DNA of 29,085 bases from a virus. A program made the translations under genes and the position numbers. The stretch is taken from positions 1 through 29,085 of IMG/VR virus record IMGVR_UViG_3300029993_000023; one strand, written 5' to 3'. The notes beneath the pieces were generated by a model, which made no database searches, was not told where the DNA came from, and saw nothing but the letters and a program-made list of their open reading frames with translations. This document shows positions 12,350 through 22,950 of the stretch, in pieces. How positions within the stretch are numbered: position 1 is the first letter of the stretch; every line of letters starts with the position of its first letter.

Positions 12350-13525
12350 TCAGGGGGTGAGGTAATCAGCCCAGGCCTGCATCAGCTGGCGTCGCTTCTC
12401 GAGCAAGTCGCCTCGGCGGTAAGCGGCTTCGGTTTTGTCCTTGACCACATGCGCCAGCGCCGACTCGCTGACCTCGTTGGGGAAGTCGGTTCGTTCGGTC
12501 GCCCAATCCTTAAACGTTGAGCGGAAGCCGTGCACGGTGAAGCGTGCGAAGCCAATGCGCTCGAGCAGCTTGTCCATGGCGGCGTTCGACATATGGGCTT
12601 TCAGGCCACGGTCCCCCGGGAAGATGAAAAGACCTCCGCGCAATCGTGGGGTCCGCTCGAGCACGGCTATTGCTGCGTCCGTCAGCGGGACAGGGTGAAC
12701 ACGCTTCGCCTTCATGCGCTCTTTCGGTATGGTCCAAGTGTCGCCGGCAATCTCGAGCCAGCGCGCTTTGCTGACCATGTTCGTGCGCGAGGCTGTGAGG
12801 ATAAGGAACTCGAGCGCTCGGGCGGAGATAGCCGTGTCAGCGCGCAGCGTCGCCATGAATGCAGGCATCTCGAGATAGGGCATTGCAGGAAAGTGGCGCA
12901 CCGCGCGCACGCTTGAGGGCTTCGGTAGCAGCTTGGCGAGGTGACCACGCCATCGTGCCGGGTTCTGCCTATCCCAATGCCGCTGGGCATACTGGGCATC
13001 AAGCACCGCCTCTACACGCTGCCTTACTCGAGTCGCCGTCTCCGTCTTGGTCTCCCACACAGGCCGAAGTATCTCGAGAACGTCAGCTGTGTCGATCGCG
13101 TCAACCGGCTTTGATCCGATGAACGGGAATGCGTAAAGTTCGAGCGTCGATTGCCACTGGGCGGCGTGCTTCGGATTCGTCCATGACTTTCGCTGACTGG
13201 CGATGTACTCGAGCGCTGCCTCGGCGAATGTTGGGATCGAAGCCCGGGTCGCGTTAGCTGCCTTCCTCGCCTCGAGCGGGTCGATACCCTCGAGCTTTGC
13301 TTTGCGTGCAAGCAACGCCGCGGCTCGAGCTTCAACAAGGCTGACGGTGTGCAATGCACCCAGTCCCATATCTCGAGTCTTTCCAGCTCGAGTGAATCGG
13401 AAGATCCACGACTTAGACAGCGTGGCCGTCACCTGTAGATACAAGCCTCCACCATCCGCGTAATATCCAGGTTCGGCCACAGTCGCCACGCGACGCGCCG
13501 ACAAGCGATTCAGCGCCCGGGCCAT
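12350..13525 (-). CDS. int: P4-type tyrosine integrase (DUF4102)
   Basis: A 391-residue site-specific recombinase. The N-terminal arm-binding domain is of DUF4102 type (YYADGGGLYLQV at 21-32, SKSWIFRF, then MGLGALHTVSLVEAR). The catalytic domain shows Arg247 (TASRT), Lys272/274, His332-x2-Arg335 (HGFRSTFKDWA), His359 (LAHVV) and nucleophile Tyr369 (AAYRRGD). The usual GE after the first Arg motif (ARTGE) is NM here. I chose ATG 13525 because family homology begins at MARALNRLSARRV. The frame stays open to 13687, but that extension runs through the tRNA-like att sequence. Fourteen CTCGAG sites lie inside this gene. Confidence 0.92.
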   Translation of the reverse strand: MARALNRLSARRVATVAEPGYYADGGGLYLQVTATLSKSWIFRFTRAGKTRDMGLGALHTVSLVEARAAALLARKAKLEGIDPLEARKAANATRASIPTFAEAALEYIASQRKSWTNPKHAAQWQSTLELYAFPFIGSKPVDAIDTADVLEILRPVWETKTETATRVRQRVEAVLDAQYAQRHWDRQNPARWRGHLAKLLPKPSSVRAVRHFPAMPYLEMPAFMATLRADTAISARALEFLILTASRTNMVSKARWLEIAGDTWTIPKERMKAKRVHPVPLTDAAIAVLERTPRLRGGLFIFPGDRGLKAHMSNAAMDKLLERIGFARFTVHGFRSTFKDWATERTDFPNEVSESALAHVVKDKTEAAYRRGDLLEKRRQLMQAWADYLTP

Positions 13526-13667
13526 CGACCCACATTCCCACCCATGTTTTACACCCTGATTGCCACTTACATTGGCGAACAGTAGCGGAAAACAAAACCC
13601 ATAGAAACGTTGATGCAGCAAGGCTTGCTTGCTTTGGGCGAATGGTGCAATATGCGCGGCTCGCGGA

Positions 13668-13681
13668 CGCTCTCTCCGCCA
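13668..13681 (+). other. Candidate attP core: 3' end of a tRNA-Ser gene
   Basis: CGCTCTCTCCGCCA matches the 3' end of tRNA-Ser genes of the E. coli serU type: acceptor strand TCTCTCC, discriminator G, encoded CCA. No T-arm precedes it, so it is not a whole tRNA. It lies 143 bases upstream of the integrase start. DUF4102 integrases commonly insert into tRNA 3' ends, so this fragment would restore the host tRNA after integration. Confidence 0.55.
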
Positions 13682-13693
13682 ATACATAAGCCT

Positions 13694-13719
13694 AAAGCCC
13701 TGTTAATTCGGGGCTTTTT
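13694..13719 (+). terminator. + strand terminator downstream of the tRNA-like end
   Basis: AAAGCCC (13694-13700) and GGGCTTT (13711-13717) enclose a 10-base loop, with TTTTT at 13715-13719. Genes on both sides run on the minus strand, so a + strand terminator makes sense mainly as the replacement terminator of a tRNA restored at the att site. Confidence 0.6.
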
Positions 13720-13720
13720 G

Positions 13721-13939
13721 CTATGCGGCTTTTGACTGACCCATGTTTCCAACCACATCGCGATCAGCCATCAACTGCGAAATCCATTCGTCGACCTCTG
13801 ATTCTGACCAGAGCGATCGCTTGCCGAATTTACCCGGCCGCGGGAAAGTGCCTTCCTTGATTCCTTTGTAAACGGTCGTGTGGCTCAGCGAGACTTTCTC
13901 GCACACGGCCTCGAGCGTGAGTAAGTGTTGAGCGCTCAC
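13721..13939 (-). CDS. AlpA-type excisionase/DNA-binding protein
   Basis: A 72-residue winged-helix protein of the AlpA/MerR-like excisionase family: LLTLEAVCEKVSLSHTTVYKGIKEG, then FPRPGKFGKRSLWSESEVDEWI. These proteins direct excision by the neighbouring integrase or activate its gene. It starts at GTG 13939, which overlaps the upstream stop as GTGA. It lies directly on the other side of the presumed attP from int, the arrangement expected for xis. One CTCGAG site lies near its 5' end. Confidence 0.8.
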   Translation of the reverse strand: MSAQHLLTLEAVCEKVSLSHTTVYKGIKEGTFPRPGKFGKRSLWSESEVDEWISQLMADRDVVGNMGQSKAA

Positions 13940-14250
13940 CCCTCACGCTCCGCAAGAAATTCATCCAGGCGACGAAGTATCGAGCCGCCATCCTCGACGC
14001 CGTAGTCCCTCATGCATTCCCAGATAACATCCCGGCAATCCCTCAGCAACGCCTCAGCCCGATCAGCGCGGGATTGAAGGTTTGTTGTGGCGCGGGAGTT
14101 CCACCAGGAATAGAGCGTTGCCTCTCCTTCCTTGGTGTCTTTGCTGCAAGCTCCGCAATCGTTGCATTCGACATTCTGTCCCCATCGAGCCATGTCAGTT
14201 ACAGACGCTATCCCGCCGCAGAACGGGCAGTTAAGAAGCTCAGCCTTCAT
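13936..14250 (-). CDS. Lar-like restriction alleviation protein
   Basis: A 104-residue protein beginning MKAELLNCPFCGG with Cys8/Cys11 and Cys29/Cys32 (VECNDCGAC) followed by an LYSWWNSR motif. This is the Lar-family pattern (NCPFCGG ... CxxCGA ... WNxR) of small phage zinc proteins; Rac prophage Lar protects DNA against type I restriction. The C-terminal half (about 55-104) is a helical extension not typical of short Lar proteins. The start overlaps the end of the upstream gene by 11 bases. Confidence 0.7.
   Translation of the reverse strand: MKAELLNCPFCGGIASVTDMARWGQNVECNDCGACSKDTKEGEATLYSWWNSRATTNLQSRADRAEALLRDCRDVIWECMRDYGVEDGGSILRRLDEFLAEREG

Positions 14251-20226: not shown

Positions 20227-20636
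<410 letters not shown>

Positions 20637-22152: not shown

Positions 22153-22950
<798 letters not shown>

Follow-up and report, generated by a model that had tools for sequence, protein, structure and literature searches.

The integrase (int) and excisionase (xis) genes of the phage described here carry an array of the exact palindrome CTCGAG that is, we are nearly certain, selected at the nucleic-acid level, and a comparable array recurs in a second integrase lineage. In the window, i.e., the whole 29,085-base stretch of DNA analysed, an exact count returned 15 copies, 14 in int, one in xis and none in the rest, the very distribution claimed in the original prediction. All of them fall between positions 12398 and 13915, a density of ~ten CTCGAG per kb in a xis-int module of 1.5 kb (Table 1). 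The window is also contained, identical over its length, in IMGVR_UViG_3300028801_000005 (G002), whose ends overlap by 127 bases, indicating a genome that is circular and 46,715 bases long, and in this full genome CTCGAG is found nowhere besides xis-int.

Table 1. Features of the xis-int module in window coordinates
Feature	Position	Strand	Description
int	12350..13525	-	Tyrosine integrase, 391 aa; Arm-DNA-bind_3 PF13356, Phage_int_M PF22022, Phage_integrase PF00589 (Pfam)
CTCGAG array within int	12398..13392		14 exact copies, their starts 15-162 bases apart
Array sites in int, first part	12398, 12560, 12656, 12752, 12809, 12869, 13027		CTCGAG
Array sites in int, remaining seven	13073, 13208, 13271, 13289, 13324, 13372, 13387		CTCGAG
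Probable Int arm-type site	13528-13535	-	Direct repeat ATGTGGGT, 5' of int
Probable Int arm-type site	13540-13546	-	CATGGGT, 5' of int
Probable attP core	13670..13681	-	TGGCGGAGAGAG, reverse complement of tRNA-Ser-type 3' end
xis	13721..13939	-	AlpA-family excisionase/regulator, 72 aa; PF05930; PHROG excisionase families
Probable arm-type site	13739..13745	-	CATGGGT near xis end, other side of attP core
Fifteenth CTCGAG	13910..13915		Inside xis

Shuffling the whole window with its dinucleotides preserved gives 9.8 ± 3.1 CTCGAG over 29 kb, or ~0.4 per int-sized gene, in agreement with the earlier estimate that a random hexamer should appear well below once in such a gene. Codon-preserving shuffles of int, set beforehand as the refuting test, give 3.4 ± 1.4 copies with a maximum of 10 in 20,000 shuffles, and the observed 14 was never reached. 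Ten int sites lie in phase 0 (CTC GAG, Leu-Glu) and four in phase 1 (xCT CGA Gxx), the latter using CGA for arginine, while the 11 Leu-Glu pairs comprise ten CTC GAG and one CTC GAA, so that the codon and phase counts first reported hold in full. No other palindromic hexamer is comparably prominent in the window int, and CTCGA within xis-int is almost always extended to CTCGAG (15 cases, versus one CTCGAA, no CTCGAC and no CTCGAT). Protein composition, codon bias or chance could appeal to the ten window sites that are Leu-Glu codon pairs, but the codon shuffles and the several reading phases speak against them, as do the reappearance of the array in another lineage and the mere 0-3 copies of 288 homologues; we give this explanation practically no weight.

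The second lineage (lineage B, the window integrase belonging to lineage A) was found by integrase search in four contigs whose integrase is ~52% identical in protein to that of the window. The xis-int module holds 17 CTCGAG in G007 (15 in int, two in xis) and 13 in G008 (11 and two); G815 has 12, all in int since its xis lies beyond the contig, and G816 has ten (seven in a partial int, three in xis). Outside the module the word is absent from G007, G008 and G815 and present once in G816. G007 and G815 are related phages, with 79-85% DNA identity across several long stretches, whereas G008, G816 and G002 have distinct backbones and the DNA similarity between G007 and G008 is limited to the xis-int module. 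Temperate phages of four or more kinds carry the array. Lineages A and B have no clearly common gene besides xis and int. At least 18 non-integrase genes of a further phage, G818, are common with the window phage (37-76% amino acid identity), and its integrase (L248) is of lineage-B type and lacks the array; a backbone like that of the window phage combined with such an integrase shows that the integration module is swapped among backbones.

No bacterial host was found for either lineage in the genomes searched. The window integrase had no match above 54% in the bacterial genome collection. For the lineage-B integrase, a threshold of E ≤ 1e-130 gave no match among the 399 and 397 genomes searched in the orders that contain Massilia and Methylobacterium, and identity did not exceed 60% in three other bacterial orders. 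No close relative was found among named phages. Cytosine-specific DNA methyltransferase genes are located near non-array int relatives in Caulobacter phage DMCA (L402) and Acidovorax phage Acica (L404).

Dense CTCGAG might also have been a family trait imposed by the protein, a possibility that does not survive the comparison with related integrases: in a set of 293 distinct integrase ORFs, every member without the array (288 homologues) holds just 0-3 copies. In a tree of 50 integrases the window gene pairs with L084 (75% identical, no copies) with support of 100, and lineage B falls beside L247 and L248, with no copies each. The fewest changes explaining the array on this tree are two and, judging from this topology, it arose at least twice. 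A survey of 204 integrases revealed no comparable array of any other palindromic hexamer, and among the matches listed for other CTCGAG clusters in viral contigs there was no family integrase beyond lineages A and B. The other viral clusters inspected were set aside as tandem repeats, Leu-Glu-rich or low-complexity frames, or CTCGAG-rich genomes. Four viral contigs (L315, L349, L390 and L313) show CTCGAG excess throughout, at 8-15 per kb or ~2-3 times the codon-shuffle expectation, possibly a HIP-like word in other lineages.

These comparisons bear on an earlier suggestion, namely that the array is a highly iterated palindrome (HIP) inherited from a former host. The module would have come from a genome using CTCGAG as a HIP, or have been moulded in one, by a methyltransferase-tied mutational ratchet as for cyanobacterial HIP variants. 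Phage contigs with genome-wide CTCGAG excess do exist (e.g., 8.7 per kb in L315 and 14.9 per kb in L390), and HIP variants track methyltransferases and could come from biased repair (PMC4390886). However, the nearest relatives L084, L247 and L248 have no copies at all, non-array members of the 293 have three at most, the flanks of bacterial carriers are CTCGAG-poor, and no homologue in a CTCGAG-rich genome was found. With two gains at the tips of the tree, and gain, loss and conservation within lineage B while the carrier phages are nearly CTCGAG-free elsewhere, the idea is disfavoured and we consider such an import improbable. Of the three earlier proposals this leaves a site bound by a host or phage factor, and a methylation signal.

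Conservation within lineage B, whose members share ~80-89% DNA identity, points to selection on the word itself. Many array sites persist in every member; where sites differ, several bases change at once (CAGGAA, CTGGCC or GCCGCC to or from CTCGAG), with different amino acids as well. For the residues that G008 and G007 have in common, we compared codons whose third base lies inside a G008 array site with codons elsewhere: the array-site codons are identical in 22 of 22 cases, versus 180 of 305 for the other codons (Fisher p = 1.6e-5), and other comparisons of the same kind gave p = 0.002-0.013. That array-site codons are kept identical indicates that a DNA (or RNA) word is under selection. 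Most sites occupy different codons in lineages A and B, the common ones being found in DPLEAR, ETATRVR and LLEKR. The 11 Leu-Glu pairs of the window integrase are the highest number among 127 homologues (mean 2.6), so the protein gave way, in part, to the DNA word. The earlier claim that the bias acts on DNA whatever the reading phase, and is driven by neither protein nor codon usage, is right, and recurrence and conservation in lineage B strengthen it considerably.

Outside xis-int, CTCGAG is missing from four of the five array phages, and a single copy was counted in ~154 kb for all five together, against ~54 expected from dinucleotides; for G002 alone the expectation is ~15.6 from dinucleotides or ~10.5 from 5-mer statistics. 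Other palindromes are missing too (CACGTG in G002; CCGCGG, CTGCAG, GAGCTC and GGGCCC in G007), so this depletion looks like ordinary restriction-site avoidance, palindrome avoidance being common among phages (PMC12707154). The 18 non-array relatives hold 108 CTCGAG in 689 kb (0.16 per kb) and just one of them has none. Avoidance as a mark of array phages alone is weakened by two non-array relatives, G818 and G827, which are also nearly CTCGAG-free. In any case, avoidance cannot account for the CTCGAG enrichment in int and xis.

A rival explanation is that the sites are selected to be cut, such that CTCGAG-restricting hosts destroy or block the integration module and bias infection away from lysogeny. 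The genes int and xis are dispensable for lytic growth, and the sites are confined to them with almost none in other genes. Palindromes of this sort are generally avoided by phages (PMC12707154). On the other hand, a cut in int breaks the phage genome as well, so sites should be lost, and mere tolerance does not account for arrays conserved at 10-17 copies; we hold this explanation to be very improbable.

The array flanks the probable attachment site without entering it. The putative attP core TGGCGGAGAGAG is present in a single copy per genome, at the same place in lineages A and B, and the core with its flanking CATGGGT-type repeats shows an identical layout in G002, G007 and G008. CATGGGT repeats occupy corresponding places in G007 and G008 and are also seen near int in L084 and L248. 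A tRNA-Ser gene lies ~150 bases from int in six bacterial homologues; no attL or attR was seen for the window phage. The xis-int intergenic stretch (~200 bases) contains no CTCGAG, while ~2 per genome would be expected, and since the word occurs only in coding DNA on both sides, the array probably flanks attP and is separate from the arm-type repeats. CTCGAG as an Int arm-type site was accordingly rejected: it is absent from the intergenic attP, where CATGGGT repeats are found instead. Directly upstream of xis, at 13936-14250, a gene encodes a Lar-type restriction-alleviation domain (PF14354), which may bear on a connection with restriction/modification. The early region of the window harbors tandem hexamer-type repeats at 20231-20480 and 22271-22489 (~42 copies of TAGCCG, and GCTGCG organised in a higher unit of 48 bases).

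The location of every site in coding sequence, together with the shortfall in the intergenic stretch, could also be read as an mRNA word, with an RNA factor binding or cutting CUCGAG and limiting int and xis expression. We know of no RNA factor of this specificity, a perfect palindrome indicates DNA, and folding of the int mRNA is not unusual (z of -1.3 and -0.7 versus codon shuffles), so that an RNA-level role seems quite improbable.

What reads the word at DNA level is suggested by its form. The core comprises exactly six bases; around it there is no broader consensus, apart from G being mildly preferred on its 5' side and C on its 3' side, and site spacing is irregular, without fixed distance. 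Spacing in lineage B tends to be somewhat more even than random (CV of 0.53 and 0.46 versus ~0.83; p = 0.03 and 0.02 in two tests that are not independent), and the corresponding value for the window array is p = 0.12. Restriction/modification enzymes typically recognise an exact hexamer. A strict 6-bp palindrome that shows no broader consensus, is apparently read at DNA level and is kept out elsewhere corresponds best to an enzyme of this type or to a reader of its methylation. Alternatively, a sequence-specific DNA-binding protein, acting without methylation, could coat int-xis via CTCGAG and silence it like nucleoid-type silencers, the word being avoided elsewhere to spare other genes. Sites that span both genes, tend to even spacing in lineage B, are restricted to the module and are almost missing elsewhere would suit such a silencer. 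Its operator-like wider consensus or fixed spacing is not seen, though, a strict 6-bp palindrome would be unusual for it, and no regulator gene common to both lineages was found beyond xis and int; we regard this option as unlikely.

Pfam and PHROG searches, covering G002 and most called genes of G007 and G008, recovered a set of recombination genes (RecT, ERF, SSB, and YqaJ and exonuclease VIII types) along with structural genes and a repressor-type peptidase. In G002 and the scanned proteins of G007 and G008, Pfam returned no DNA methyltransferase, type II restriction enzyme or common candidate reader; with no reader recognised in the phages, the factor is probably supplied by the host. Matches to T5orf172/MUG113 (GIY-YIG-like) were obtained in G002 and among G007 and G008 proteins, their relatedness or specificity not being established, and the small protein at L278:6900-7379 (minus strand, G002) looks like the G002 match.

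In the model that we favour, the array would be read by a CTCGAG-specific DNA factor of the host, which is most likely a methyltransferase, or else a restriction-modification system, with XhoI/PaeR7I-type specificity. Through its methylation state, either directly or via a reader protein, the array would mark int/xis DNA, and DNA so marked would be controlled in its expression or in its use for integration and excision. Elsewhere, CTCGAG would be kept out by the harm done there by the same factor or a nuclease partner. The model finds parallels in the iterated palindromes of cyanobacteria, which track methyltransferases (PMC4390886), and in phage P1, which requires methylated sites at pac (PMC12707154). 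Against it, the reader gene was not recognised by Pfam in the phages and must be the host's; known methylation-controlled elements have their sites at promoters, origins or pac, and the present array lies in coding sequence and misses the intergenic attP; and a restricting host should select against CTCGAG in int too. Marking of the integration module by a host CTCGAG methyltransferase or restriction-modification system, a whole in which we infer the reader step, is thus a tentative reading that may well be wrong.

Going further, we speculate that temperate phages repeatedly write a host methyltransferase word into int-xis and purge it elsewhere, such that the epigenetic state of the host gates integration and excision. 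This is doubtful at present; if true, it would amount to an epigenetic lysogeny switch encoded within protein-coding DNA. A restriction-type word favoured in two genes and avoided otherwise, with at least two origins in unrelated backbones, implies that the integration module is acted on by a specific factor of the cell, and if this factor were a methyltransferase or a reader it would add a new control layer to the lysogeny decision. Beyond phage biology, the array shows DNA-level selection able to reshape protein sequence.

No earlier description of CTCGAG arrays was found in the literature searched, whose coverage is incomplete. As proteins, the window integrase and excisionase are unremarkable in their families: int has the three domains of a P4-type tyrosine integrase and an AlpA-type xis adjoins it (Pfam). 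The probable attP core, which resembles a tRNA-Ser 3' end, and the repeated probable arm-type sites would suit a P4-type system at a tRNA gene. Relatives lack the CTCGAG array, and the array is not the arm-type site, a role for which the CATGGGT repeats are likely. Phage avoidance of restriction sites (XhoI/PaeR7I-type) resembles the depletion of CTCGAG and several other palindromes outside xis-int, but it predicts depletion everywhere, whereas array phages are strongly enriched in int and xis.

Further parallels are the clustered Dam sites of E. coli oriC (GATC/SeqA) and of the pac site of phage P1. Dam methylation is needed at P1 pac (PMC12707154). In both clusters, as in our array, exact sites of methyltransferase type are clustered locally in one functional element of a replicon. 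The array differs in its word, in the larger size of the element and in its position within int/xis coding DNA and not at an origin or packaging site, methylation of the array being hypothetical. Cyanobacterial HIP1 (GCGATCGC) and its variants, which are methyltransferase-associated (PMC4390886), are likewise exact short palindromes iterated above expectation, as seen here for int (14 versus 3.4 ± 1.4) and for the complete lineage-B genes (11-15 versus 1.2-1.9). Given its absence from the remainder of the 46.7-kb genome, and its difference in place and word from methylation-site clusters, we regard the array as a new kind of element with respect to the collections searched, which are incomplete. 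HIPs are spread genome-wide at about one per 1000 bases, whereas the CTCGAG array is limited to a single 1.5-kb module.
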